From a virus: a stretch of 21,986 nucleotides of DNA. Location of the stretch: positions 1 to 21,986 of IMG/VR virus record IMGVR_UViG_3300011432_000018. One strand, 5' to 3'. The translations under genes and the position numbers were made by a program. Shown here piece after piece: positions 4,142-21,986 of this stretch. Every line of letters begins with the position of its first letter. Position 1 is the stretch's first letter. The notes under the pieces were generated by a model. It saw only the letters and a program-made list of their open reading frames with translations, did no database searches and was not told the origin of the DNA.

Positions 4142-5092
4142 ATGGTAACGGTTGAGATCGCGGTAAAGGAATTCATGTTGGCTCAAAAGGCAGATGGAAA
4201 TAAGCCTAATACCATTCGTTGGTATCGGCACATGCTTTCCCCTGTAGTTGCCCGATTCTATGGCAAACAGGTTGATCATGTGACTGTTGTTGCACTGCGT
4301 GAATATGTGGTTGATCTTCGGAGCCGGGGACACCGTTATATCAATGCAGCACAGCGCCCCGAACTAGAGGGTGGACTGAGCCACGAATCCTTACGCGATC
4401 ACATTCGTTCAATGAAGGTCTTTTTTAACTGGTGTATGCGTGAATACGAACTGTTGGTTAATCCAATGGACAAAATTCGTATGCCCGCCCGGATGAAACA
4501 GGAGCCAAAAGCGATAGCCCTTGACGATCTCAAGTGTTTGCTCAACACCTGCGATATGTCCACAGCGTCGGGTATCAGAGATCGTACAATGCTGGCGTTC
4601 TTGGCTGACACTGCTTGCCGTGCCGAAAGTATGCTCAGTTTACGTATGGAGAAATTACACCTGCGTGAGCTATATGCAACCGTGCTGGTCAAAGGCCGTG
4701 ATGTTCGTGACCTTGATGTTCCGATCAGTCCATATACCGCCGATCTATTGAGACAGTGGATTGCTGTACGACCAATTGAGGCCGATCCGACCTTTGTGTT
4801 CTGTTCGCTAGCAACCAATACCATTGGCAAGAGATTGACGCTATCAGGGCTACATCAGGCCATAAAACGACTGGCGCGACGGGCTAAAGTAACCGGGCGT
4901 GTCAATCCACATAGTTTCCGGCATGGTTTTGCGCGTCAATACCTTATGAATGGCGGCGATCTGGCAACACTGTCTCAAACAATGGGTCACAGCTCTATAT
5001 CAGTCACAGTAGAGTTCTATGCCCGTTTTGCCCGTCACGAACTTGCGCAACAGCACAAGAAATTCAGTCCAATTACGAATATAGAGGAGTAA
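4142..5092 (+). CDS. int: Tyrosine recombinase (site-specific integrase)
   Basis: The product is 316 aa. An N-terminal core-binding (SAM-like) domain spans about residues 5-105. The catalytic domain carries the full active-site set: Arg160 (ACRAES), Lys184 (VKGRDVRD), His257-x-x-Arg260 (HSFRHGFA), His283 (MGHSS) and nucleophile Tyr293 (EFYARF). The length is in the XerC/D and short-integrase range, without a large arm-binding extension. It catalyses integration and excision by strand exchange at a core site. A tRNA-Lys 3' fragment lies 237 bases past its stop, the usual int-attP arrangement. The start has only a weak ribosome site. The following gene begins 3 bases after its stop. Confidence 0.95.
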   Translation: MVTVEIAVKEFMLAQKADGNKPNTIRWYRHMLSPVVARFYGKQVDHVTVVALREYVVDLRSRGHRYINAAQRPELEGGLSHESLRDHIRSMKVFFNWCMREYELLVNPMDKIRMPARMKQEPKAIALDDLKCLLNTCDMSTASGIRDRTMLAFLADTACRAESMLSLRMEKLHLRELYATVLVKGRDVRDLDVPISPYTADLLRQWIAVRPIEADPTFVFCSLATNTIGKRLTLSGLHQAIKRLARRAKVTGRVNPHSFRHGFARQYLMNGGDLATLSQTMGHSSISVTVEFYARFARHELAQQHKKFSPITNIEE

Positions 5093-5095
5093 CCA

Positions 5096-5428
5096 ATGTT
5101 CAACCAGGAGATGCTTATTGAAATATTGAAGGAAACAGACAATGTGAAGGATCGCGTTGTGGTTTTCCAGTGTGGCGGTGTATGGTCAGTAGGTGTGCTG
5201 GCGTTTGATTTACAGGCCGATGATTTTTTCTATCTGCCTATCGAGTTGGATGCACAGCCAAATATCCCAGAATCAATTGCTGTGATGGGTGAAATGAAAA
5301 ATCCGCACGGATTGCGGATTTCTAAGAGTGACTCCGGTAGGACTCGAACCTACAACCAATTGATTAAGAGTCAACTGTCTTGCCGCGCTGCCCACTGCCG
5401 TAAATCCAACCGAAAGCAAATTGCATAA
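5096..5428 (+). CDS. Small protein coupled to integrase; reading frame runs through attP
   Basis: The frame is 110 aa, starting 3 bases after the integrase stop with GAGGAG just upstream, so it is co-translated with it. The first 67 or so residues look like a compact alpha/beta protein (VVVFQCGGVWSVGVLAFDL). The last 40 or so are encoded by a perfect 9-bp hairpin and the tRNA-Lys fragment, and are probably not part of an ancestral protein. After integration, everything beyond the crossover would be host DNA, so the C-terminus differs between the excised and integrated forms. It could be an excisionase-like or directionality partner, judged only from position; no family recognised. Confidence 0.6.
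   Translation: MFNQEMLIEILKETDNVKDRVVVFQCGGVWSVGVLAFDLQADDFFYLPIELDAQPNIPESIAVMGEMKNPHGLRISKSDSGRTRTYNQLIKSQLSCRAAHCRKSNRKQIA
5299..5323. terminator. Hairpin next to attP, possible bidirectional terminator
   Basis: AAATCCGCA (5299-5307) and TGCGGATTT (5313-5321) form a perfect 9-bp stem with a 5-base loop. It is preceded by AAAA and followed by TTTCT counting the stem end, so it could act in both directions. It lies just past the 3' end of the tRNA fragment, where a tRNA gene's own terminator would sit, and may have been captured with it. It also lies inside the 5096-5428 frame. Confidence 0.55.
5329..5375 (-). other. attP: attP core: 3' half of tRNA-Lys(CTT)
   Basis: Read on the minus strand this is a tRNA from the anticodon arm to the discriminator base. 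The anticodon stem GTTGA/TCAAT encloses loop CTCTTAA (anticodon CTT, Lys). The variable region is followed by T-arm GTAGG-TTCGAGT-CCTAC, then the 3' acceptor strand CGGAGTC and A; CCA is not encoded. The 5' acceptor strand GACTCCG and a proper D-arm are absent upstream, where unrelated sequence follows, so this is not a functional tRNA gene. Such a fragment beside a tyrosine recombinase is the classic attP of elements that integrate into a tRNA 3' end and rebuild it. Exact core edges are uncertain. Confidence 0.85.
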
Positions 5429-6676: not shown

Positions 6677-7603
6677 ATGTTAGCCAACAATGCACCCAAA
6701 TTACTTGACCTATTCTGTGGCGCTGGCGGTGCATCAGTCGGCTACTATTACGCTGGATTTGATGTTGTAGGGGTTGATCAACGTGATCAAACCTTCTACC
6801 CGTTTGAATTCATCAAAGCCGATGCTTTGTCACTGGATTATGAATTCCTTATGTCATTTGACGTGATCCACGCATCACCGCCCTGTCAGAACTACAGCAC
6901 CGGATCGGCGCTGGCTCGTATGCGTGGCAAGAAATATCCTGACTTATTCAAGCCAGTTCACCGTATGCTCATTGCGGCTGGAGTCCCTTATGTGATCGAA
7001 AATGTGGTAGGAAGTCCTGCAAAGGGGATCGGACTATGTGGTTCTATGTTCGGCCTGGGAGTCCGTCGCCATAGGATATTCCAGAGCAATATACCGCTCT
7101 CACTTCCAGATACACCATGCACATGCTCAGATCATCATGGGGAATACATCACAGTAGCGGGATCGTCGTTTTCCAAAGATGAGGGCGCGCTGGCAATGGG
7201 CATTGATTGGCCTATAGACAAGTTCCAGTTGAAGGAAGCAATTCCACCTGCTTACACAGAATGGATCGGAAAGCAGTTGATCGCATTCATTTCTGAGCCT
7301 CGATGGAATAACGTTTCTGAGTTACCGGTGCTTTCCATTTCTGAGAACCGGACAAATATCATTTCTGAGGCGCAGCGGGTTAGCGTTTCTTACGACCAGG
7401 ACGTTTGCGTTTCAAGAAACGATAATGACAAGCTGCTCATTTCCGTTTCTGAGTACCCAGGTGATACCGTTTCTGAGCGGCGCCTGCTTCCCGTTACACG
7501 CAGGTGTGGGCATTGCAGAGAGCCGCTTCCACAGGGCACGGCACGGCGCAAATACTGCGACGGCCTATGCAGATTGCGGGCATTCCGATCCATTAACCTC
7601 TGA
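6677..7603 (+). CDS. DNA (cytosine-5) methyltransferase with repetitive tail and zinc finger
   Basis: The product is 308 aa. C5-methyltransferase motifs appear in order: motif I LDLFCGAGGAS (about 10-20), motif IV ASPPCQ with nucleophile Cys70, motif VI ENV (E108), motif VIII RRHR (130-133), and a motif X-like PPAYTEWIGKQL near 190-200. The gap between motifs VIII and X is short, so the target-recognition part is reduced, as in compact phage-type enzymes. Residues about 204-270 are an 8-residue repeat starting I/V-S-E. The end is a Cys4 finger (C277, C280, C294, C298) like the free 35-aa ORF at 4000. No partner restriction enzyme is seen, so a protective or regulatory solitary enzyme is likely. 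The ribosome site is AAAGGT before ATG 6677. The tail is unusual for the family. Confidence 0.92.
   Translation: MLANNAPKLLDLFCGAGGASVGYYYAGFDVVGVDQRDQTFYPFEFIKADALSLDYEFLMSFDVIHASPPCQNYSTGSALARMRGKKYPDLFKPVHRMLIAAGVPYVIENVVGSPAKGIGLCGSMFGLGVRRHRIFQSNIPLSLPDTPCTCSDHHGEYITVAGSSFSKDEGALAMGIDWPIDKFQLKEAIPPAYTEWIGKQLIAFISEPRWNNVSELPVLSISENRTNIISEAQRVSVSYDQDVCVSRNDNDKLLISVSEYPGDTVSERRLLPVTRRCGHCREPLPQGTARRKYCDGLCRLRAFRSINL
7288..7477 (+). repeat. 24-bp-period repeat array (core CRTTTCTGAG) in methyltransferase 3' region, copy A
   Basis: The 10-base core CRTTTCTGAG begins at 7288, 7312, 7336 and 7360, with degenerate copies at 7384 (CGTTTCTTAC) and 7408 (CGTTTCAAGA). After a 36-base step it appears again at 7444 and 7468. 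Cores are separated by 14 variable bases, so the unit is 24 bp or 8 codons. Positions 7408-7421 also form the near-palindrome CGTTTCAAGAAACG. The part 7298-7449 has an inverted copy at 15834-15933. Confidence 0.88.
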
Positions 7604-8224: not shown

Positions 8225-8959
8225 TTGTTATGGTTGACTACTGTGTACAAAATTAGACACGTCATTCTCATAATCGCACTACTCGCAATCATTCTGATTA
8301 CCGGGGTAGTGTACGCATCTGGCACAACCACGATTACAGCAAATGGCAGTTCAATAATCGTTGGCAACAACCTTGTTGCTGAACAACGGGTAGCCCAAAG
8401 TTTTCAAGTTTCGACAGGTCATTTCAGTGAATTCACCGTAACGTTTATTGCCAATTCTGGTACTCCAAGCGGTACAGTAACCTATGAGCTTCGTCACAAT
8501 AACGCTGGCGATCCTGGCACGATCATTACCACTGGCACTTTCACACCTACTGCATCCACAGGCAACACAGTTAATGTTACAACGCTCCCTATCCTAGACG
8601 ACAGCACTACCTATTGGTTGGTGCTGCGATCAACCAATGCTCAGGATGTTGGTAATGGTTGGCAGGTTCAAACCTCATCTGCTGGTAACAGCACCTATGC
8701 CGACGGGGAATTTAAGCTCAGTACCAATGGTGGAAGTAGTTGGACAGGCGATACACGCGATATGCAGTCCAGTTATACAACGATTGATTCGACTCCTACA
8801 CCAACTCCCACACCAGATATGCACCTGCTCTATGAACTGCCTGATGGGAAATCAGGCGAGTTAGTTTACAGCGTCACAGCGGGCGAACTGGCACTGATTG
8901 TTCTCGCAGTAGCCATTCTCGGAATGCTGATCTATATGGCTATTAAGGAGAAGAAATGA
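8225..8959 (+). CDS. Secreted, C-terminally anchored beta-domain surface protein
   Basis: The product is 244 aa from TTG 8225; an ATG at 8230 is out of frame, and TTG 8234 or GTG 8243 are possible later starts. Residues about 12-35 are a signal peptide (VILIIALLAIILITGVVYA). Residues 40-190 form a Thr/Asn/Gly-rich beta-sandwich with AEQRVAQSFQV, YELRHN, DSTTYWLVLRS and TNGGSSWT, like the choice-of-anchor lectin-like domains of bacterial surface proteins. A TPTPTPTPD stalk follows, then a membrane helix (about 219-239) and a KEKK end. It is therefore probably displayed outside the membrane and could be a receptor-binding or spike protein. It overlaps the next gene by ATGA. Confidence 0.8.
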   Translation: MLWLTTVYKIRHVILIIALLAIILITGVVYASGTTTITANGSSIIVGNNLVAEQRVAQSFQVSTGHFSEFTVTFIANSGTPSGTVTYELRHNNAGDPGTIITTGTFTPTASTGNTVNVTTLPILDDSTTYWLVLRSTNAQDVGNGWQVQTSSAGNSTYADGEFKLSTNGGSSWTGDTRDMQSSYTTIDSTPTPTPTPDMHLLYELPDGKSGELVYSVTAGELALIVLAVAILGMLIYMAIKEKK

Positions 8960-9090
8960 TCCTGGTGTCCACTAGCATAGTCCTACTTGTGCTGCTTCCA
9001 CTAATCGCTGTAGTGAGCACTTTTGCATTGATGCTGGGGCTTTCATTTCTGCGTTGGATCGGTAAGAAAGTTTTGGAGTTATACGCCTGA
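8956..9090 (+). CDS. 44-aa single-TM protein
   Basis: ATG 8956 overlaps the upstream stop (ATGA) and has an excellent AAGGAG ribosome site 6 bases before it, so this tiny gene is very likely translated. Residues 4-32 are a long hydrophobic helix, followed by a basic amphipathic end (LRWIGKKVLELYA). Size and charge layout match minor coat or assembly proteins of filamentous phages, or Spd-like membrane proteins of conjugative elements. No sequence family recognised. Confidence 0.75.
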   Translation: MILVSTSIVLLVLLPLIAVVSTFALMLGLSFLRWIGKKVLELYA

Positions 9091-9215
9091 TGGATGCGCT
9101 TTTAGAGTTCGTGGCTGTAGCTATTTTACCTGCTGTAGTCATGGCTGCGGAAGCGCTTGTTGTGGTCATTGTAGTTGTGGAAGGTATTTCCTTCCTTGTT
9201 GAAATATTTAGCTAA
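9090..9215 (+). CDS. 41-aa hydrophobic protein
   Basis: ATG 9090 overlaps the preceding stop by one base (TGATG), with GGAG about 12 bases upstream inside the previous gene. The product is nearly all Val, Ala, Leu and Ile with four Glu/Asp spaced through it (MDALLEF, AAEALV, VEGIS, VEIF), so it is an acidic membrane-spanning helix. This is the second of three consecutive tiny membrane genes. Its stop begins a 15-base sequence also found at the helicase stop. Function unknown; a coat or holin-like role is possible. Confidence 0.7.
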   Translation: MDALLEFVAVAILPAVVMAAEALVVVIVVVEGISFLVEIFS

Positions 9216-9279
9216 GGGGGTGATGCGTGGTTGCGCGGGATACCAGTCCAACACACTGAAAGAAAGGAGGAAAGCGATC

Positions 9280-9441
9280 ATGAGTCTTGATTTAGCTCCG
9301 ATTATTGAAGGCGGTTTCGCACAAGCTAACGTATTTCTGGTTGGCTTTGCAGGCGTTCTCATGCTGGTCTTTGGCATTGGACTATTCAAATGGATATTCG
9401 GAATGCTAAGGAATATTTTTTCCAATCTTGGAGGGACATAA
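9280..9441 (+). CDS. 53-aa candidate major coat (pVIII-like) membrane protein
   Basis: ATG 9280 follows a near-perfect AAAGGAGG 9 bases upstream, the strongest ribosome site in the operon, implying high expression. Another in-frame ATG at 9223 would extend the protein but its GGGGGTG sits only 2-3 bases away. The layout matches filamentous-phage major coat proteins: a short acidic/amphipathic N-terminus (SLDLAPIIEGG), a hydrophobic core at about 18-41, and a C-terminus with Lys and Arg. It has no signal peptide, as in several inoviruses. A stable hairpin follows the gene, as after gene VIII of Ff phages. A small pilin or internal membrane protein of a vesicle-like virion is the alternative. 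Confidence 0.65.
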   Translation: MSLDLAPIIEGGFAQANVFLVGFAGVLMLVFGIGLFKWIFGMLRNIFSNLGGT

Positions 9442-9465
9442 CCCTCGTATCTGTTTCGTCATTTT

Positions 9466-9488
9466 GCGGCGGTTTGATCACCCGCCGC
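9466..9488 (+). terminator. GC-rich hairpin after the coat-like gene
   Basis: GCGGCGG (9466-9472) pairs with CCGCCGC (9482-9488) around a 9-base loop. There is no T-run after it, so it may be a partial terminator or an mRNA-stabilising 3' end that raises coat-like protein levels over the downstream genes. Confidence 0.5.
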
Positions 9489-9502
9489 GTTGAGTAGGTG
9501 AT

Positions 9503-11359
9503 ATGAAAGTTCGTTCATCTCGTGTGCTAGTTTTATCGGTAGTACTGCTCATTATTCTAAGCAGTCTTTTTGTGTTTCCCGGTACTGTTCGTTCGCAATC
9601 AGCGGATCACGATTATGATTTTCGTGCTTCGGCTGATGGGAGTTTTGATACAGATTGCGGAATTTATGATGATGGCTCGCCAATGGGTGGTAGCGATCCA
9701 AATTGGCAGGGCAGCGGGTTTGGTACGTGGGGTTCCGGTTCCGGTTATACCAATAATGTTCAGCTTAGTACCGCTGGTAATTCTTCCCAGAACGCTATAT
9801 CGGTTAACTGTTCAATTGGCACTACCACCTCTGCTTCAGGGATGACAATTGAATATACATCTAATGACGATGCTATTGCGTTTTCAGGGATTCAATTGTT
9901 TCACTCTGGTGGTCAGACTGATGATTATTTTACGTGGCCTAATACGTCTGGTACCCCTGATACGATAACCCGGACATTTTCGATTACTGGACTAACACAG
10001 TTCAATTTTGGTGCTTACAACTGTAGTGCTGCGGGCGCTACCACTTGCGACAATGGGTTTTCCATCACAATTCATAGAATCACGTTGCATGGTACGACGT
10101 TGGCTACAAATACGCCTACTCCAACGCTTACCCCAACAATCCCCCCACAGGGCGGCGGTGGAGTTCCGAGCTTATCTTGTCCCCTGTTAGGTCAGGATAG
10201 CGCCAATTTTAGAAACTTACCTGGTAACTGGAAACTTGCACCAACAACCCTTACCAATCCAGTAGGCACCACATCTGGACTAGCGTTCACAACTACAAAC
10301 GCAAACGCCCAGCTTCCTTTAACCCTGAGTAGGTTCAATCAGTACATCCTCACAGTTCGTTACCACATTACGAATACAACCGCTGGTGAAATTTATCTAG
10401 GGTTAGGGAACTCGCCATTATTGAGAGTTCCTATAGCTGGCACGCAGGACACTATTCAATCGTTTGAAGTTCCTTCATCCAATTACGAGCCGAATAGATT
10501 AGGGACTGGCTCAAATGCTGATAGCTATAACCTTATACTCATTGCGCCAACTACCGATGATCTGATCATAGATTTCATCTGTGTAAAAGATGCTTCTCCA
10601 AGCGGCGGTTCGACTGGTACAAGTGGCAATGGTAGTTGGAGTAGCTCAGGTTTTGTTGGTATTCAAGCTGCCGTAGACGGTTGTACTATTCCATACGATG
10701 ACACCAACAATGTATTCATATATGCCATTTCTCGTATCTGGCATTGTGGTTTGAAGCCAGCCCAAGAGGGTATATGGGCTGGTGTTACCAATACTTTCAG
10801 GTTTATACAGGTAGGCTGGGACTGGCTCAGTACTGTTGTTGGAAATTGGATTACATGGATAAGTAGAACGGCAGGTGTACTCTGGGCTTGGTTTTCGGGC
10901 GCTGCCGGAAATATATTAATTGCTGTTTTGAATGCTGCGGCCTCATTGTTTAATAGTCTTGGCTTATCTGACCTATTGAATCGCGTTGTTCAATTTATTA
11001 CCAATTTGCCAAGCATTATCAACGCTATCGTGCAAACCGGTATAGCTGTTATATCGATCATTGGCTATTGGATCGGCAGGTTTATTAATACTGTCCTGAG
11101 TGTCATTTTTGCTGTACCCGCACTGATTACCAGTATTATCACCGGGTTCAATACGTCCGCAGCAACAGTGCCAGTTTACGCTCCAAGTTGTAATTCCAGC
11201 AATCCAGTACTTTATGCTCCCTGTTTATCATTCTACGTATTGGATCATACCGTTTGGGATGGCCCAGCATTCTTTATCATGCCTGTGTTTATGGGCTTAA
11301 TTGCTTGGGATGTTCTGATGTGGGCGATAAACACGATTAAGGAGAATTTTAGCAAATGA
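9503..11359 (+). CDS. Large secreted two-domain stalk protein with multi-TM C-terminus
   Basis: The product is 618 aa with AGGTGAT before ATG 9503. A signal peptide covers about 1-32 (VLVLSVVLLIILSSLFVFPG). The first extracellular beta-rich domain spans about 35-198. A short TP stalk (TNTPTPTLTPTIPP) and glycines follow, then a second beta domain (about 225-363) and a Ser/Gly linker. From about 380 come long hydrophobic and Trp-rich segments forming several membrane helices (about 430-560 and 590-612), with a cysteine-containing loop between. The plan of exported domains, flexible linker and membrane C-terminus recalls the adsorption protein pIII of filamentous phages or the spikes of membrane viruses, but no sequence similarity is claimed. 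It overlaps the next gene by ATGA. Confidence 0.8.
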   Translation: MKVRSSRVLVLSVVLLIILSSLFVFPGTVRSQSADHDYDFRASADGSFDTDCGIYDDGSPMGGSDPNWQGSGFGTWGSGSGYTNNVQLSTAGNSSQNAISVNCSIGTTTSASGMTIEYTSNDDAIAFSGIQLFHSGGQTDDYFTWPNTSGTPDTITRTFSITGLTQFNFGAYNCSAAGATTCDNGFSITIHRITLHGTTLATNTPTPTLTPTIPPQGGGGVPSLSCPLLGQDSANFRNLPGNWKLAPTTLTNPVGTTSGLAFTTTNANAQLPLTLSRFNQYILTVRYHITNTTAGEIYLGLGNSPLLRVPIAGTQDTIQSFEVPSSNYEPNRLGTGSNADSYNLILIAPTTDDLIIDFICVKDASPSGGSTGTSGNGSWSSSGFVGIQAAVDGCTIPYDDTNNVFIYAISRIWHCGLKPAQEGIWAGVTNTFRFIQVGWDWLSTVVGNWITWISRTAGVLWAWFSGAAGNILIAVLNAAASLFNSLGLSDLLNRVVQFITNLPSIINAIVQTGIAVISIIGYWIGRFINTVLSVIFAVPALITSIITGFNTSAATVPVYAPSCNSSNPVLYAPCLSFYVLDHTVWDGPAFFIMPVFMGLIAWDVLMWAINTIKENFSK

Positions 11360-12633
11360 AATTCTCTGTTCGTCTTTTGTTGACCACGTTTATTGTAATG
11401 GGTGCATTGCTGGCATTACCTCATGTAGCTGCTGCCCAGAGAAATATTGATTGTGTAGATACACCTGAGTTTCCAAAATTTAACTTTGGTTGGCGAATCC
11501 TTGAAGGCCAGATCGATTCTGATGTTACACATGGTACGTTTCTAGCATCAGATGGTACGTCAATGCTTAATCCTTTACAGAGTCGCGCTGCTGCATACCT
11601 GGAATACGGCAGTGATGTAAGTGTTTATTCTGTCAAAGCAAAATTTTATAATGGCAGATTAAACAACACTGGCATATTTACAACACTGGAAGTTAAGGCG
11701 ACTGATAGTGTGCGAGGGTCTAGTGTTGTAAATGGTATTGGTTGGTGGGACGCAAAAATTTATTTAAAGTCGAATCTTACGAGTCGTCTCGAAGTTAGTG
11801 TTGTTCGCACAGGATCGGAACGGGTAGCAGTAGCGGTTGAGGAAATCTGCTACATCACTAATCCTATTCTTGATGCTGGTGGCACTCCTTCATTGACACC
11901 GACAATTAGTGCTACACCCACACCTACAGTTGGGCCAGGAACACCTCATCCTACCTTCACACCAACTCCAAGTAATACACCAACACCAGTTCCAGCTACT
12001 ATCACACCAGGCGGGCCAACCTTAACTAATACCTCTATACCTACGCTGGGTAGCGGTACAGGCAGCGCTGGCGTTATTCAAACACCGCGAGAGCCACCTG
12101 CTTGCGATGTTCCTGCTTTATGCGGTGATCCCATAGTAGTACCGGGATTTGGTGATATTGAACTGCCAAGTCCAACTGCTATGACGCAGGCCGCGTTTTT
12201 ACCAACCAGCACGTTTTATGCGTCAACGGGTACACCTGGCACACCTGGTACACCCACAACAACAGGGACATCTGCACCGATTGAAAACGACGTAATTTCC
12301 TATGCAACACAGATCGCTCATGTAGGAAATACAGTAGGGGAAGGCGGTACAGGTGGCGCTGGCTTTGGACTAGAAGGTGAGGATGGATTCTACGTTGATA
12401 TACAGAACGGCGGCAACCAGATCGGTGGATACATCGGGGTTTTGTTCGGCGCTGCCAGGGCTGTTCAATCATTCTTTCTGGGAAAAACAGGGTCAATCGT
12501 AGCGTTCCTGTTATTGCTGGTCGGATTCTACTTTGTGCTCAAGTTGCTACTGTGGCTTGTTTCAGTCATTAAATCGCTATTCACATTTTTTTTGCAGGTC
12601 ATTTCAGTAGTGAGGTCATTCTTTAGCATATGA
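11356..12633 (+). CDS. Secreted stalk protein with two C-terminal TM segments
   Basis: The product is 425 aa. The start overlaps the upstream stop (ATGA). A signal peptide spans about 1-28 (LLLTTFIVMGALLALPHVAAA). A beta-rich globular domain covers about 30-175, then Thr/Pro linkers at about 178-240 and 282-312 flank a short Pro-rich CDVPALCGDP segment. The C-terminus has two hydrophobic helices (about 350-370 and 380-402) and an amphipathic end ([11 protein letters not shown]). Organisation and neighbours match the 618-aa protein, suggesting both are parts of the same surface structure. No family recognised beyond this architecture. Confidence 0.78.
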   Translation: MKFSVRLLLTTFIVMGALLALPHVAAAQRNIDCVDTPEFPKFNFGWRILEGQIDSDVTHGTFLASDGTSMLNPLQSRAAAYLEYGSDVSVYSVKAKFYNGRLNNTGIFTTLEVKATDSVRGSSVVNGIGWWDAKIYLKSNLTSRLEVSVVRTGSERVAVAVEEICYITNPILDAGGTPSLTPTISATPTPTVGPGTPHPTFTPTPSNTPTPVPATITPGGPTLTNTSIPTLGSGTGSAGVIQTPREPPACDVPALCGDPIVVPGFGDIELPSPTAMTQAAFLPTSTFYASTGTPGTPGTPTTTGTSAPIENDVISYATQIAHVGNTVGEGGTGGAGFGLEGEDGFYVDIQNGGNQIGGYIGVLFGAARAVQSFFLGKTGSIVAFLLLLVGFYFVLKLLLWLVSVIKSLFTFFLQVISVVRSFFSI

Positions 12634-12983
12634 AGTGGCTTGCACTATGCTCAGTTCTCGCCCTGCTTTTGTTTTTCCCTGGAGCGGTACATGCTGCCGA
12701 TCCTACACCGACTCCAACATTGCGCCCGATACCACCTACACCAACATCTGCATTTCTGTATTTCAGGAATACGCCAACACCCTGGGCAATAGGGACGGTG
12801 CCACCTGAGTTCAATTTAAACGTTGCCCTGGATAGTGCAGAGGTAGCTGACACGGCGATCAATGCTTATCGATGGATTAACAGTGACCATCTGCTAGACA
12901 TGATTACTACAGGTATGTTAGCAGCGGTTACGTTCGGGTTACTGCTGTCCACTATTCGGCGGGGTACAAAGAATCAGGGATGA
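12630..12983 (+). CDS. Small exported protein with TP segment and one C-terminal TM
   Basis: The product is 117 aa. The start overlaps the upstream stop by ATGA. A signal peptide at 1-23 ([19 protein letters not shown]) is followed by a Pro/Thr-rich stretch ([17 protein letters not shown]). A short helical region and one membrane helix (about 92-108, [17 protein letters not shown]) precede a basic RRGTKNQG tail. The topology resembles small type-I membrane phage coat proteins. It is the third member of the stalk-protein series in the operon. Function unknown. Confidence 0.75.
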
Positions 12984-13918
12984 AACGCGCTCCCATTAAG
13001 AACTGGCCCGCTGGTTATGATCCAACCAGCAATGAATATCCACACCAGCGCCCGTCAATTACAAGCTGCCTGAGTGGTTGTCTCGCTGTGCTGGCTATTA
13101 TCTTCTGTATGGTTGGTGTAGGGATAGGGCTTTATTCATACTCCGATCTCAGGGGAAAAAGTACCCTGCCTTCTGTATTACAGATTCCTACTGAGACACC
13201 AACTGAGACTCCGGGGCCGAGTCCAACGGGTGCAACAAGTACACCAACAATTACTCTGACAATAGAAGCAGGTACAGCCACTCAGCTAGCAGCAACGCGG
13301 ATCGGTGTTTTAACTGCCACGCACGGTACACGTTATCCTACATTCACCCGTACATTTACTAAAACATTGCTGCCCACAAAGCGCCCGCCAAGTACATTCA
13401 AACCCGTGCAGCCTCGTAACAATTCAGGAGGTCAACAATCCAGGCCGGGGAATCCGCAATTACCACCTGTCAGCATCGATCCACCTATGCAGCCGCAACC
13501 GCAGATATTCCCCATTGTAACAGCAACGCCACTGCCTACACCTGTACTCACCAGTACAAGTACTTTCACTCCGACGGTTACGCTAACTGAAACAGCCACA
13601 CCAACTGAGACTCTAACGTTCACAGAAACGTTGATCGAAACCAGTACGCCAACTTATACGGAGACTCCAACCAATGAGCAAACGCAGACGGAAACGCCAA
13701 CACCCACTGACACGATTGTTCCGACCCTTACGCCAACTCCTACGGATACACCGACTGATACTGCCACTGTTACGCCTACTGACACGGCAACGTTAACGCC
13801 CACATTTACCGAAACACCTACACCGACACCGACTGACACACCAACGGCAACACCGACATTTACATTTACACCCACTGAAACATGGACTCCCACACCAACG
13901 GAGACTCCAACGCCATGA
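12980..13918 (+). CDS. Type-II membrane protein with long Thr-Pro stalk
   Basis: The product is 312 aa. The start overlaps the upstream stop by ATGA. A Pro-rich cytoplasmic N-terminus (about 1-30) is followed by one membrane helix (about 33-53). About 255 extracellular residues come next, mostly Thr, Pro, Ser and Glu/Asp, ending in nearly pure TPT/TET/TDT repeats (about 190-312) with no terminal domain. The repeats are typical of Chloroflexota surface proteins and would form an extended rod. Thr density makes it an obvious O-glycosylation target, and a GT39-type transferase is encoded downstream in the same operon. It could be a tether through the host envelope or a fibre. The stop overlaps the next start by ATGA. 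Confidence 0.82.
13573..13914 (+). repeat. Low-complexity Thr-Pro-coding DNA tract
   Basis: Imperfect short repeats of ACN-CCN and ACN-GAN codons encode the TPT/TET/TDT stalk. Codons vary (ACA, ACG, ACT, ACC), so the repeat is kept at protein level rather than by recent DNA expansion. Long antisense frames here are artefacts of this composition. Confidence 0.85.
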
Positions 13919-14217
13919 GGTTCAAATTCAAGAGCATTCTACGGGATATATTCCCGATACGACCTATACAGGACAAGCTCCCGAAATTGACCAGGCGGTA
14001 TTCAAGTCCCTATGGTTTGGAGGTCAGGCCAGACCAGGAACATGCAGCGAACTACCTTAAAGTTCATGGTGTGGCTAAATCAAGGTCAGATGCGGCGCGG
14101 TTGTTGAGAATTCACCCTGACAAATCGTTGAAACAGATCGTGAAGTTGGAAAAACCGAAGCGTCGAAAAATGGCAGCAATTGAACGTTCATGGGAGCGAC
14201 TTAAAAAATGGCTATGA
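13915..14217 (+). CDS. Small basic cytoplasmic protein (100 aa)
   Basis: ATG 13915 overlaps the stalk-protein stop by ATGA. An in-frame start further upstream (13882) would lie inside that gene and is rejected. The product is strongly basic ([34 protein letters not shown]), with a helical middle ([22 protein letters not shown]) that has a helix-turn-helix-like rhythm. No signal peptide or membrane segment. Lying among surface-protein genes, it might bind DNA during packaging or export, by analogy with virion DNA-binding proteins; that is inference. Confidence 0.7.
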
Positions 14218-14336
14218 CACGAAAACAGAGAAAGCGATTTGAAAAGCAGGTTGCACGTCAATCCGCTCATCGCAAACGCAGGAATACATACCGGGCAGTA
14301 CGTCATTGGGGGCGAAATTGGTTTGATCTATTTTGA
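14214..14336 (+). CDS. Tiny Arg/Lys-rich protein (40 aa)
   Basis: ATG 14214 overlaps the previous stop (ATGA). About 16 of 40 residues are Arg, Lys or His ([31 protein letters not shown]) and the end is aromatic (NWFDLF). The composition matches small DNA-condensing proteins packaged with viral genomes, or simple nucleic-acid binders. It is too short for family assignment. The tight overlap with both neighbours supports it as a gene. The next gene starts 11 bases after its stop. Confidence 0.6.
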   Translation: MTRKQRKRFEKQVARQSAHRKRRNTYRAVRHWGRNWFDLF

Positions 14337-14347
14337 TTGGAGTGAGT

Positions 14348-15835
14348 ATGTCTATTGACTTTGAAATGATCCCTGGATACCAAACTTTAATGCGTATCCC
14401 ATCATGGTTCAATCTGGCTGTTACTGCTGCTATTCTCCGGTTGATCAACATCGGGCAAGAGTCACTCTGGTACGACGAATCATTCACAGCATGGCTTTCA
14501 AAACTTGAGTGGCCTAACCTATGGGCAGCTATTCGTGGCGATGTTCACCCGCCGCTCTGGTACATCATTGAATGGATCAATGTTCGGCTGTTTGGTACAT
14601 CTGAGATAGCACTTCGCATTCCCGCTGCATTGCTCAGTGTGATTGCTGTCCTGTTAGTTCGTAAGCTGGCTTTATCGGTTGGCTTCCAACGCGGTACAGC
14701 ATTCCTTGCAGGACTGTTTGCAGCCGTGCTACCTGCGGCGGTTTACTATGGGCAGGATGCAAGGATGTATCCGCTACTGGCTTGCTGTGTATTGGTCGCT
14801 GCACTGGCTGCAATCCGTGAGAACTGGATTGTATTCACAGTGGCAAGCATTGCAGCGGTCTACACCCAAAATCTGGGTTTATTCTATGTACTAGCTATTG
14901 GAGCCGCGTCTACGCTTTCACGCTGGCACACATGGCGATCATTAATCCGCCCGGTGCTGGCAGGTGGTGCAACTGTAATAGCCTGGTTGCCCTGGAGTCA
15001 GGTTGTATTACACCAGGTCAAACAGATCAGTAATGGGTTCTGGATACAACCAATCACTACCGGTAGTTTGCTTTGGCCTATTGAAGCCATGACAGCGGGA
15101 GTCCGGTTGCCGGAAACTTTTACATTACATATCTATGGAGCGGTAGCAGGTGTAACCCTGGTTGGGCTGATTTCATGCCGCAAATGGGTATTCACTCGAT
15201 CCGGCCTGATTGTGATGTCTGTTATCTTAGGGACTCCGCTGCTTATAGCTGCTATGTCTCTTGTTTGGCGAACCGTGTATTTGCCCAGAGCTATGCTGCC
15301 ATCGGCTCTAGCATTGTGTCTATTGTGGGCTTATCCATTGCGGCATTTGTCACGGCCTAATCGGAGCATTGCACAGGCTATTGTTACCCCGATGATATTG
15401 ATCGCGCTCTGGTCACACTATTTCCCAGCGATCAACGGGCGCTTTCCAGTGCGAGAATGGGCGAACACTATTCAAAGCAATTGGCAGCGCAATGATGTGA
15501 TCTATTACATTGCCATCGATGCTTGTCTGTTGTTTGAATACTACCTGCCTGATAAACCCTATGCACTGCTTCCCTATGCTGGCGACCTCAACCAATCACT
15601 GACAGAAGAAACCAAAGCAGCAATGCAAATTGAGGCTAGATCGTTCGACTGGCTTAAACAACAGGGCTACGAACGAATCTGGCTCATTGTGGCAACAAAT
15701 CCATTGACCAACGCTCAACAATACCAGCAAATAGCCAGCATACTGCTTAACCACGCCTGGAAAGTTGTTAAGCATGAGGATTTGAATGTTGGTACACGCA
15801 CTATCTATCTGGTTGACCTGGTAGCAGAGATTTGA
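14348..15835 (+). CDS. GT39/PMT-like membrane glycosyltransferase
   Basis: The product is 495 aa. ATG 14348 has GGAG 5 bases upstream; TTG 14333 lacks a site. About ten membrane helices are visible. The first extracytoplasmic loop holds the family's acidic pair in WYDES (D43, E44) and then DVHPPLWY (65-72), hallmarks of the GT-C transferases of families 39/83 (protein O-mannosyltransferase, ArnT and bacterial relatives). A soluble domain follows the last helix from about residue 375. These enzymes move a sugar from a polyprenyl-phosphate carrier to an acceptor outside the membrane. Placement after four Thr-rich exported proteins suggests it glycosylates them, or alters host surface glycans for exclusion of relatives. 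Donor and acceptor cannot be read from sequence. Confidence 0.85.
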   Translation: MSIDFEMIPGYQTLMRIPSWFNLAVTAAILRLINIGQESLWYDESFTAWLSKLEWPNLWAAIRGDVHPPLWYIIEWINVRLFGTSEIALRIPAALLSVIAVLLVRKLALSVGFQRGTAFLAGLFAAVLPAAVYYGQDARMYPLLACCVLVAALAAIRENWIVFTVASIAAVYTQNLGLFYVLAIGAASTLSRWHTWRSLIRPVLAGGATVIAWLPWSQVVLHQVKQISNGFWIQPITTGSLLWPIEAMTAGVRLPETFTLHIYGAVAGVTLVGLISCRKWVFTRSGLIVMSVILGTPLLIAAMSLVWRTVYLPRAMLPSALALCLLWAYPLRHLSRPNRSIAQAIVTPMILIALWSHYFPAINGRFPVREWANTIQSNWQRNDVIYYIAIDACLLFEYYLPDKPYALLPYAGDLNQSLTEETKAAMQIEARSFDWLKQQGYERIWLIVATNPLTNAQQYQQIASILLNHAWKVVKHEDLNVGTRTIYLVDLVAEI

Positions 15836-15933
15836 AACGGTAATGAGCAGCTATTATCGTTTCCAGAAATGATATTTGTCCGGCTCTCAGAAACGAAAAG
15901 CACCGGGTACTCAGAAACGCTATTACATCGAGG
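15834..15933 (-). repeat. Inverted copy B of the methyltransferase 24-bp repeat array
   Basis: Read on the minus strand, this 100-bp stretch matches 7298-7449 at 92 of 100 aligned positions, apart from two gaps in B: 48 bases (exactly two 24-bp units, 7368-7415) and 4 bases (GACA at 7427-7430). The cores CGTTTCTGAG lie at 15919-15910 and 15895-15886, again 24 bp apart, with a third, partly degenerate CATTTCTGGA at 15871-15862. It starts within the glycosyltransferase stop codon and fills the gap before the translocase operon. The 4-base gap breaks the frame, so B is not a usable coding copy. It may be a binding array, a decayed duplicate or a recombination scar. Confidence 0.88.
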
Positions 15934-15951
15934 TTCATATTAGAGGTGACA

Positions 15952-16125
15952 ATGATTGAACTTCAATTTTTGACAATGGGTATTGGAATATTCGTGATCG
16001 GTGCCTTATCTGGCGCAAGTATAACAATGATCGCGGTTAAGGTGCGTGAATGGATGGTAGTTCGGCACCGCATTGCATGGCTACAAGAAAATCAGCCACA
16101 TAAGTTTCTCAGGCGGAATGAATAG
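15952..16125 (+). CDS. 57-aa single-TM protein preceding the translocase
   Basis: ATG 15952 has GAGGTG (15943-15948) as ribosome site. One hydrophobic helix at about 7-30 (TMGIGIFVIGALSGASITMIAV) is followed by a basic, helical cytoplasmic end (KVREWMVVRHRIAWLQENQ). It ends 3 bases before the FtsK-like gene. That gene lacks its own membrane segments, so this protein could be its membrane anchor, analogous to the N-terminal helices of FtsK/SpoIIIE. The coding call rests on the ribosome site, the coupling and the clear topology. Confidence 0.72.
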   Translation: MIELQFLTMGIGIFVIGALSGASITMIAVKVREWMVVRHRIAWLQENQPHKFLRRNE

Positions 16126-16128
16126 GCA

Positions 16129-18180
16129 ATGAAGGTCAAGCCTTTAACTGGTTTTGAGCAAATGCTGCTGCCCTTACTCCAACTGGTCAGTTGGGGTGAT
16201 AGACGGATCATGCTCGACTCCAGGATAGCTCATACACGCGAGTTGGCCCGTATGCGTAAAGAGCAACGCGAAATGACTAAGTTGCTCAACAAGGAAGCCC
16301 GCATGTTTGAGGAAATACTCATTAAACGCCTGCAATATCGCGGCGCTGCCCACATACAACGCCATGCAGATATATCTACAGGCGGTAAGCCTGTACAGGC
16401 CAAGAAAAAGCCTGTGCAGCGAGTGAAGTTTGTAGAAATCGGCACCGAAGCAGGTGGTGAGGTTATTTACTATCGTATCGCGGTTGGCAGGTGGACATAT
16501 TTTGGCTACCAGAATCAGATACCGTTCGGTGTTGATGTTGAGTGGTTGGTAAGTCCTGAGATGCTGGCAGAATTGACCTTTGCTTGCCAACGTAGGGTTA
16601 CAGTGCGAAAAGATAAACCACAGAACGGCGTTTGGTACAGGGTACATCGACTCAGCGGCGTAGATGGTATTCCAACGCTGGTCAATATCTCTGATTTGCT
16701 GGACAAATATCCAACGGACTATAGCAAAGCACCTATCCTGGTTGGCATCGGTGAACACCGTGAACCTCACTTTGTAAACCTTGTGGACATCCACCATGTG
16801 CTCATTGCAGGCCGGAGCGGGGGCGGTAAGTCCAACTTTCTAAGAGCTATCATCTGCGGCATGATGCGATTCACTCATCCTGAGCAGTATCGCTTTATCA
16901 TGATAGACCTTAAAAAGCTGGAATTAGGCCCGTATATGGAGTCGCCGCACTTACACAGTATTGATATAGACGGCACTCAGGTTGGCCCCATTATCTTTAA
17001 CATTGACGAAGCGGTGCAAATGCTGCAATGGGCAGTGCGGGAAATATTGCGCCGTACCGATATATTGTTAGCTAAGAGACTCAATAACCTGGATAAGTGG
17101 AATAGCCTTTATCCAGATCGATCAATGCCGCACCTGGTCATTACGATTGATGAGTTTGCCCAGCTTACCTATATGAGTGAGGACAAAAGACAGGCAGACC
17201 TTGCACAGAAGTTAGTTATCCAAGTAGCACAATTAGGCCGTGCTCTGGGAGTTCATCTCATCCTGGCTACACAATACCCACTTAAAGAAGTTATCCCTAA
17301 CAGTATTAAGGTCAACGTCGGATTAACAATGGCAGCACGTACTGAAGACTCGGTGCAATCCGTTGTTATTCTGGGCAGCAACGAAGCTGCCTTATTACCT
17401 CACGATGTTCCTGGCAGAATGATTGCCAAGCTAAACGAGAAAATTCCAGTGCAGACTCCCTACATATCAGATGAATTCATGTGGGAAAGCATTGCTATCA
17501 GTAAAGGTGTAGCCGCTGGCTTTATCGTGGTTGAAGAAGGCCAACCAGTCCTGCGCCGTGATCAGATTGTTCACTACATTGCAGATTGTGTTGACGGTTG
17601 GCTCATAGTGTCCAGAATGCAGGCATTACGTGAGCATGGCATACCTCTACAGGAACTAAGATTATTCCTGGCAAAGCTCATCAAGGCCAAGGAAATAAAC
17701 ACTGAGACACGTCGCTTTAGCATTGCAAAGCAGGGTGAACGCTATCGACTGATTGAGTGGGTGAATGAAGAAATCAAAGAATACGATCCTAACCCGTACA
17801 AGTTCGCTCAACCACTACCAGCGTTACGTGAATTACCACAGGTGCCATTGTTGGAAGCAGGGGAAATGCCTGCACAGACTGAACAAATGATAATTGAGAT
17901 CACTGCTGTACCTGTAGAGGAATCAACAGAGGTTGATCTCGGTGTAATCCACTTCATTGAAAACTGCTGTACCTGCAATAAGCATTTACGCTCTACAGCC
18001 AGTGAATTATATACAGCTTACAAAGCATGGTGCTTTAAGCAGGATTTTGAGATTTTGAGTAAACGCAGTTTCGGTATGGCATTAAAGGCTAGAGGGTTTA
18101 GACCAAAAGCTACCAACGGAGCGCGGCTCTGGGCAGGATTAGCGTTGAAATCGAATGATCCTGTAGCAGAAGTAGCATAA
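16129..18180 (+). CDS. FtsK/SpoIIIE-type DNA translocase with D5/P4-primase-like C-terminal domain
   Basis: The product is 683 aa. Residues about 30-75 are a charged coiled coil. The motor domain has Walker A GRSGGGKS (228-235), the FtsK-type MIDLKKLELGPY element, Walker B ITIDEFAQL (D341, E342), QLGRALGVHLILATQ, and the later MAARTEDSVQSVVILGSNEAALL region. This is the dsDNA-pump fold of FtsK, SpoIIIE and the TraB/TraSA proteins of actinobacterial conjugative elements. It is longer than and different from filamentous-phage Zot ATPases. The last 80 residues (about 605-683; STASELYTAYKAWC, LSKRSFGMALKARGF, GARLWAGLAL) match the C-terminal domain usually found on P4/D5-type primase-helicases, which I do not know as an FtsK partner. 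No membrane helix, so anchoring probably comes from neighbours. Likely moves the element's DNA across the envelope. Confidence 0.9.
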   Translation: MKVKPLTGFEQMLLPLLQLVSWGDRRIMLDSRIAHTRELARMRKEQREMTKLLNKEARMFEEILIKRLQYRGAAHIQRHADISTGGKPVQAKKKPVQRVKFVEIGTEAGGEVIYYRIAVGRWTYFGYQNQIPFGVDVEWLVSPEMLAELTFACQRRVTVRKDKPQNGVWYRVHRLSGVDGIPTLVNISDLLDKYPTDYSKAPILVGIGEHREPHFVNLVDIHHVLIAGRSGGGKSNFLRAIICGMMRFTHPEQYRFIMIDLKKLELGPYMESPHLHSIDIDGTQVGPIIFNIDEAVQMLQWAVREILRRTDILLAKRLNNLDKWNSLYPDRSMPHLVITIDEFAQLTYMSEDKRQADLAQKLVIQVAQLGRALGVHLILATQYPLKEVIPNSIKVNVGLTMAARTEDSVQSVVILGSNEAALLPHDVPGRMIAKLNEKIPVQTPYISDEFMWESIAISKGVAAGFIVVEEGQPVLRRDQIVHYIADCVDGWLIVSRMQALREHGIPLQELRLFLAKLIKAKEINTETRRFSIAKQGERYRLIEWVNEEIKEYDPNPYKFAQPLPALRELPQVPLLEAGEMPAQTEQMIIEITAVPVEESTEVDLGVIHFIENCCTCNKHLRSTASELYTAYKAWCFKQDFEILSKRSFGMALKARGFRPKATNGARLWAGLALKSNDPVAEVA

Positions 18181-20200: not shown

Positions 20201-20515
20201 TTAATGACCGGAGGAAATGATCGCTACGGCAGCCATACGATCCCCACGCCGCATTGCTGCAATAACCTTCTGCTCGATTGGACTCAGTTCATTGGATTGA
20301 AACTTCGGAGTAGGATCGTCTGTTAATCCTAATAGCCAGTCGGTAGATGTTTCCAGAGCTTGCGCAAGACCAGCTAAAGTATCGCCTGTAGCGTCACTTT
20401 GTCCCTTTTCGTATTTTGATATTCTCTTTTGATCGGTACGCGCCTTTGCAGCTAATTCCTCCTGAGTGAGATTCAGCAGAATCCGACGCTCCCGAACACG
20501 ATCCCCACGTATCAT
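20201..20515 (-). CDS. XRE/cI-family repressor
   Basis: The product is 104 aa. A canonical five-helix HTH_3 domain covers residues 6-63: VRERRILLNLTQEELAAKA, then RTDQKRISKYEKGQSDATGDTLAGLAQALETSTDWLLGL. A short C-terminal helix (LSPIEQKVIAAMRRGD) follows. There is no protease-like (S24) domain, so induction would need an antirepressor or partner rather than RecA-driven self-cleavage. AGGATAGG precedes ATG 20515. It is read divergently from a near-consensus promoter with direct-repeat operators, the usual lysogeny or quiescence switch of temperate and integrative elements. Confidence 0.9.
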   Translation of the reverse strand: MIRGDRVRERRILLNLTQEELAAKARTDQKRISKYEKGQSDATGDTLAGLAQALETSTDWLLGLTDDPTPKFQSNELSPIEQKVIAAMRRGDRMAAVAIISSGH

Positions 20516-21637: not shown

Positions 21638-21986
21638 GTATCAGGTTAGCCTAACAGATGACGGTGAATTGGTTGAAGCGGTAGAAGTAACCGAATCCCC
21701 TGACATTGATGATAGTTACAAGCCCAAAGAAAAGCGCACTCGCGTTCAACGCTATCTATATTCAGGCGTTGGCACCGGAGTCGGTTTAGGTATTGTGGCA
21801 CTGATCGTCATTGGCATTGTGCTGCTAGTTCAGCATATTCAACACCAGATCGTCGTGAGTGAGTGGAAGCTGCCTGAGTTCACATCAATTCAATGCACAC
21901 CACCTGTATCCAACGGCTTAACGGCTCCTGATTTATTTAGTGCTGCATTTCAATGCATGGAAAGCGTTACTGGTCTATTCATGCCC
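21624..21986 (+). CDS. N-terminal part of join-spanning two-TM membrane protein
   Basis: GTG 21624 has TGGAGG 7 bases upstream and overlaps the previous gene's end. The frame stays open to the window end and continues at base 1 (bases 21897-21986 repeat 1-90), ending at 162. The full product is 144 aa. An acidic then basic cytoplasmic N-terminus (about 1-42) precedes the first membrane helix (about 47-68, GVGLGIVALIVIGIVLLV). A loop of about 45 residues with two cysteines and the second helix follow. The uninterrupted frame is the best evidence that the element is circular. Function unknown. Confidence 0.82.
   Translation, partial: MSKSKYQVSLTDDGELVEAVEVTESPDIDDSYKPKEKRTRVQRYLYSGVGTGVGLGIVALIVIGIVLLVQHIQHQIVVSEWKLPEFTSIQCTPPVSNGLTAPDLFSAAFQCMESVTGLFMP
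21897..21986. repeat. Terminal direct repeat, right copy
   Basis: This is an exact copy of bases 1-90 and lies inside the coding sequence that starts at 21624. The natural coordinate system of the element therefore ends at 21896. Anyone counting genes should count this region only once. Confidence 0.93.

Follow-up and report, generated by a model that had tools for sequence, protein, structure and literature searches.

Why should a circular viral contig carry the 3′ half of a tRNA-Lys(CTT) gene directly behind its integrase gene? The locus lies in IMG/VR virus record IMGVR_UViG_3300011432_000018, a stretch of 21,986 nt that was analysed whole and is referred to here as the window. Because a 90-nt terminal direct repeat joins its ends (1–90 on the plus strand, repeated at 21897–21986), the contig is read as a closed circle of 21,896 bp. 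The original prediction took the tRNA fragment for a phage attachment site (attP) that would allow the host to be found through its tRNA-Lys gene. We consider it very likely, with a probability of about 0.94, that 5328–5377 on the minus strand is the attP of a temperate or integrative circular element whose integrase recombines with the tRNA-Lys(CTT) gene of an Anaerolineae host, and that the tRNA is rebuilt in the process.

Results

The tyrosine recombinase (integrase) gene occupies 4142–5092 on the plus strand (PF00589, E 6.6e-27, together with a PHROG integrase match), and residues R160, K184, H257, R260, H283 and Y293 of its product are invariant in a 13-sequence integrase alignment. The tRNA-Lys half is convergent with this gene, beginning 235–236 nt past the stop codon that ends at 5092 and oriented towards the integrase; the adjacency first noted is therefore real, at a distance marginally below the 237 bp proposed. 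Read directly, the minus strand from 5377 to 5328 is CAGTTGA-CTCTTAA-TCAATTGGTT-GTAGGTTCGAGTCCTAC-CGGAGTC-A-C (unbroken, CAGTTGACTCTTAATCAATTGGTTGTAGGTTCGAGTCCTACCGGAGTCAC), which comprises the anticodon stem and loop (CTT), the variable region, the T-arm (GTAGGTTCGAGTCCTAC, 5337–5353, minus strand, also seen in the ARAGORN fold of the reconstituted gene), the 3′ acceptor strand and a discriminator A. The 7-nt anticodon loop, CTCTTAA (5364–5370, minus strand), is bordered by the anticodon stem as an imperfect inverted repeat (CAGTTGA/TCAATTG). The attP core had been placed correctly at 5329–5375, but 47 bases is too short: identity to a host tRNA-Lys(CTT) gene (see below) extends over 50 bp, from the 5′ strand of the anticodon stem to the base after the discriminator. 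Since the next-best ungapped match to this core anywhere in the window is 26/50, its presence is not due to chance.

The missing 5′ acceptor strand and D-arm bear on a different explanation, in which the phage encodes a tRNA gene here, whether functional or decayed, and no attachment site is involved. ARAGORN called no tRNA gene anywhere in the window, and thus no complete functional tRNA at this position, while the Rfam tRNA model matched 5329–5392 on the minus strand narrowly above its cut-off (32.7 versus 29 bits), as a tRNA gene might. Most of the D-arm is missing from that match, and its 5′ segment pairs with the acceptor strand at only 5 of 7 positions, a level that shuffled flanks exceed (6 of 7) in roughly every second trial; the 5′ half is therefore absent, as predicted. 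A D-armless tRNA was rejected on the same pairing result. Coupled with the recurrence of this position beside the integrase in relatives with different tRNAs, described below, these observations make a phage tRNA gene extremely unlikely, and we return to the attP.

The tRNA 3′ end is closely followed by a hairpin whose 3′ side is T-rich (5297–5323, minus strand; fold −13.0 kcal/mol). The hairpin could plausibly serve as an element-supplied replacement terminator for the reconstituted tRNA; a simple consensus scan does not flag it. Neither convincing repeats near attP of the kind expected for arm-type integrase sites nor an excisionase was identified. Seven bases from the 5′ strand of the anticodon stem are also present in the window, so identity to the host reaches 7 nt upstream of the loop, and these bases may represent a retained left integrase arm.

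The host was sought with a 42-nt probe running from the anticodon loop to the discriminator, which was scanned against one genome per species for 84,980 bacterial and archaeal species. The only exact match was in PABP01000038.1, a contig of the metagenome-assembled genome Anaerolineaceae bacterium NAT117, where it lies in a complete, unoccupied tRNA-Lys(CTT) gene with an encoded CCA and a hairpin behind it; extended, the identity to the element is 50 bp. The suggested comparison of the core with Chloroflexota genomes thus returned a single exact match, in a tRNA-Lys(CTT) gene of that phylum. Among 98 genomes of Anaerolineaceae there were one exact match, seven more at 98% and lower values in the rest, and among 396 genomes sampled from the class no other exact match was found, those at 98% all being in family members already seen. 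The exact core had no match in IMG/VR. On this sequence evidence, a host group within Anaerolineae, near the family Anaerolineaceae, is well supported. Because the matches run from one exact to seven at 98% and then downwards, the expectation that the host could be found through its tRNA-Lys gene holds at the level of the family but not of the species. At 46.8%, the GC content of the window is lower than at the host loci (~50–56%), so the actual host could be a different member of this group that has not been sampled. Tetranucleotide composition, also tried for host choice, was uninformative on loci so short. In the matched genome the site is empty and no close copy of the integrase was found.

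Relatives of the integrase were collected from genomes of the same family, order and class, and from IMG/VR. Single-sequence searches of IMG/VR with the integrase, a 618-aa protein and an FtsK-like protein gave no relatives, and the integrase relatives there were recovered only with the integrase alignment as query. In phage records the integrases were distant (<30% identity among the matches listed), and nothing was found for the 618-aa and 425-aa proteins.

The closest integrase, 50% identical, is encoded on a 49,388-bp IMG/VR contig (L084), which carries a tRNA-Lys(CTT) 3′ half that agrees with that of the window in position and orientation, plus a similar hairpin. It retains five (GTTGA) of the seven 5′ anticodon-stem bases, a stretch not retained in the families at tRNA-Gly and tRNA-Arg. 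An 81-aa open reading frame after its integrase gene resembles the start of a 110-aa frame in the window (5096–5428, plus strand; 14 of 48 residues identical, pair E 4e-6), which follows the integrase gene immediately and runs antisense through attP in its last third. Integration would alter the C-terminus of the 110-aa protein (to a predicted 123 aa), and an integration-dependent C-terminus was considered and rejected: the homologue covers only the first ~50 aa and ends before attP. With the N-terminal part alone conserved, the extension through attP is probably a frame left open by accident.

Most of the relatives examined, with integrases 25–50% identical, adjoin tRNA genes or tRNA halves, and those found integrated are 10–22 kb in length and bounded by 42–44-bp repeats that start at the anticodon loop. 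They include a 22,351-bp insert at tRNA-Gly(CCC) with 44-bp repeats (G137), whose integrase is 44% identical in the alignment and which also carries protein-mannosyltransferase-like (PMT-like; 47%), FtsK-like (32%) and 618-aa-like proteins, a 22,375-bp insert at tRNA-Arg(ACG) with 44-bp repeats (G010), and a 10,098-bp insert at tRNA-Gly with 42-bp repeats (G017). Elsewhere, two elements stand in tandem at tRNA-Gly (G013), a displaced tRNA-Gly half lies just 181 bp behind the gene (G014), and the halves of a tRNA-Lys(TTT) are 22,022 bp apart (G023). A contig in a bacterial genome assembly (G034:C65, holding L053 and L066) overlaps itself by 5,198 bp and so closes into a circle of 18,066 bp. Its integrase gene is followed, 80 bp on, by the 3′ half of a tRNA-Gly gene, which makes this circle a direct analogue of the window. 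The anticipated inserted element with a duplicated core has accordingly been seen in related elements, but no integrated copy of the exact element was found in the genomes searched. Insertion at an unrelated site, which would have told against an attP here, was seen in no relative with a readable attachment site.

The ends of these repeats locate the probable crossover. In the Gly relatives the repeat begins exactly where the anticodon loop does (nt 32) and in the Arg relative one base earlier (nt 31), with unrelated sequence upstream in both. One relative (G144; integrase 46% identical) holds the opposite half, the 5′ half of a tRNA-Cys(GCA), and its repeat ends at the last loop base (nt 38), so that the loop boundary is unchanged; in contig G144:C2 (L114–L115) this half and some 50-odd bases of promoter-like upstream sequence are present in three copies (at 1163201, 1164404 and 1184716). 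The window differs from the Gly, Arg and Cys relatives in that its identity to the target reaches a further 7 nt upstream of the loop, a point that counts against the model. As repeats that start at nt 32 and repeats that end at nt 38 overlap there, we infer that strands are exchanged within the 7-nt anticodon loop. This narrows the attP reading, itself supported, from the whole core to a probable crossover at 5364–5370. Cleavage by the SSV1 integrase has been measured at the borders of the anticodon loop, and it is established that the anticodon stem and loop resemble a lambda-type core site (PMC8371274); the anticodon is one standard sublocation of tRNA-gene integration (PMC4383910).

Next to the integrase of some relatives (for example G063, L086, L088, L090, L095 and L098) a tRNA half could not be recognised, and the rule is therefore documented for most, though not all, of the members examined. 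A supported split in the integrase tree (99/97) largely separates relatives whose tRNA half runs against the integrase gene from those in which it runs along it; G023, G144 and L097 depart from this in position or type. Contigs from two further genomes of Anaerolineaceae (G026:C148, from 51334 onwards, and G036:C52, from 8585 onwards) have FtsK-like and PMT-like genes directly behind a tRNA-Lys(CTT) gene, and insertion at the same site was considered for them; neither a related tyrosine integrase nor a second repeat was found on them.

These comparisons also weigh on the idea that the tRNA fragment was acquired by accident, or marks a former attachment site that this integrase no longer uses. 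Such an origin would accord with the lack of a known integrated copy of the exact element and with its difference in GC content from the matched host. Against it stand the exact 50-bp identity, the intact catalytic residues and the nearest integrase relative, which has the same geometry at the same isoacceptor; we regard it as very unlikely.

For a working attP, the integrase (4142–5092) would exchange strands between this site and the tRNA-Lys(CTT) gene of its Anaerolineae host within the 7-nt anticodon loop. A functional tRNA gene would result, its 5′ half from the host and its 3′ half from the element, with the hairpin terminator of the element behind it. The 3′ half that the host gene had before would come to lie at the opposite end of the insert and form the second direct repeat. 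In line with this scheme, ARAGORN calls a tRNA-Lys(CTT) in the predicted junction attL and none in attP or in the reciprocal junction. The predicted junctions would link the host tRNA-Lys 5′ half to window positions ≤5327, and window positions ≥5378 to host sequence after GGAGTCAC. As the new junction has CACTCTTAG, not CACCATAG, and encodes no CCA, the CCA would have to be supplied by the host CCA enzyme after integration; the matched host genome holds two PF01743 genes (CCA-adding/poly(A) polymerase type).

Discussion

The attP described here is ordinary in kind. A tDNA-targeting attP with an anticodon-centred crossover was reportedly described by Williams in 2002. The fragment in the window reaches the end of the gene, the predicted junction folds as the same tRNA, and a tyrosine integrase lies beside the site. 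The closest match is Islander site class ‘A’ (PMC4383910), in which likewise the 3′ part of a tRNA gene is carried by the element and restored on integration, a displaced fragment marks the other end, a tyrosine integrase adjoins attP, and the anticodon loop forms the overlap with the stem as core arms. There is no difference in principle, and the mechanism is textbook; the element and its link to an Anaerolineae host group are what appear to be new.

tRNA-dependent lysogeny also employs a tyrosine integrase at a tRNA-Lys gene (PMC10865867), and by analogy integration might here break the host tRNA while an element-borne tRNA compensates. In that system the tRNA is destroyed around a core of ~10 bp and the phage brings a whole tRNA, whereas in the window the core spans 50 bp to the 3′ end and rebuilds the tRNA, and the element has no tRNA of its own; the probability of such an arrangement is close to negligible.

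Actinobacterial integrative and conjugative elements (AICEs, PMC3218068) resemble this group in their tandem insertions. They belong to another phylum, and the element, which has an integrase and an FtsK domain, encodes a DnaB-like helicase rather than RepSA or RepAM, as well as a module of coat-like and secreted proteins. Immediately upstream of the DnaB-like helicase gene, a 24-nt inverted repeat (1413–1511; 92%, arms 51 nt apart) is possibly an origin or a regulatory structure. A second inverted repeat of 74 nt (arms 7294–7367 and 15864–15937, 89% complementary, 8.5 kb between them) has one arm in the 3′ part of a methyltransferase gene and the other between the PMT-like and FtsK-like genes. 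A small helix-turn-helix repressor is encoded at 20201–20515 on the minus strand, and its top NCBIfam match, the RstR family of phage repressors (E 1.9e-12), is below the curated cut-off.

The module occupies 8225–14217 and 14333–18180 of the window and is common to G137 (L081), G144 (L114) and G142 (L080). It comprises a secreted protein with a C-terminal transmembrane segment (TM), a single-TM coat-like protein of 50–55 aa (in 2–3 tandem copies in G137), secreted Thr/Pro-rich membrane proteins of 600–700 and 425–600 aa, a PMT-like glycosyltransferase and an FtsK-like ATPase. In the window the short single-TM frame is 53 aa, and similar 50–55-aa proteins precede the large secreted proteins in the relatives; one of these short proteins has weak matches to Phage_coatGP8 (E 0.013) and to a PHROG major coat protein (E 0.0067). 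Inoviruses, some of which have attachment repeats in tRNA genes (PMC6813254), likewise combine large secreted proteins with a C-terminal TM and an FtsK-HerA type ATPase, and their short (30–90 aa) single-TM structural protein may have a counterpart in the coat-like protein. They differ from the element, in which no Zot-type pI was detected, the 683-aa ATPase has no predicted TM, and a DnaB-like helicase is encoded. A pI/Zot-type ATPase (PF05707) was found neither in the window nor in six genomes with relatives; an FtsK/SpoIIIE-type ATPase stands in its place. Since the named matches are weak and Zot is absent, we do not file the element as an inovirus.

Instead, we raise the tentative suggestion, which we hold to be somewhat less than an even prospect, that the element belongs to an undescribed lineage of ~20–22-kb temperate filamentous-phage-like elements of Anaerolineae. 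Its members would share a 50-aa single-TM coat-like protein, large Thr/Pro-rich secreted membrane proteins, a PMT-like enzyme and, substituting for Zot, an FtsK-type ATPase. Their related integrases would insert at the anticodon loop of various tRNA genes, with the 3′ half coming from the element in most cases, and at least one member (G144) giving the 5′ half. The literature results listed contained no relevant earlier description from Anaerolineae.

In conclusion, a near-unique 50-bp match connects this orphan viral contig with a group of uncultured Chloroflexota as host. Sibling elements are known in integrated as well as circular form, which opens both this connection and the mechanism to direct testing. 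A virus-like lineage in Anaerolineae, if it proves to be true, would matter more than the attachment site itself.
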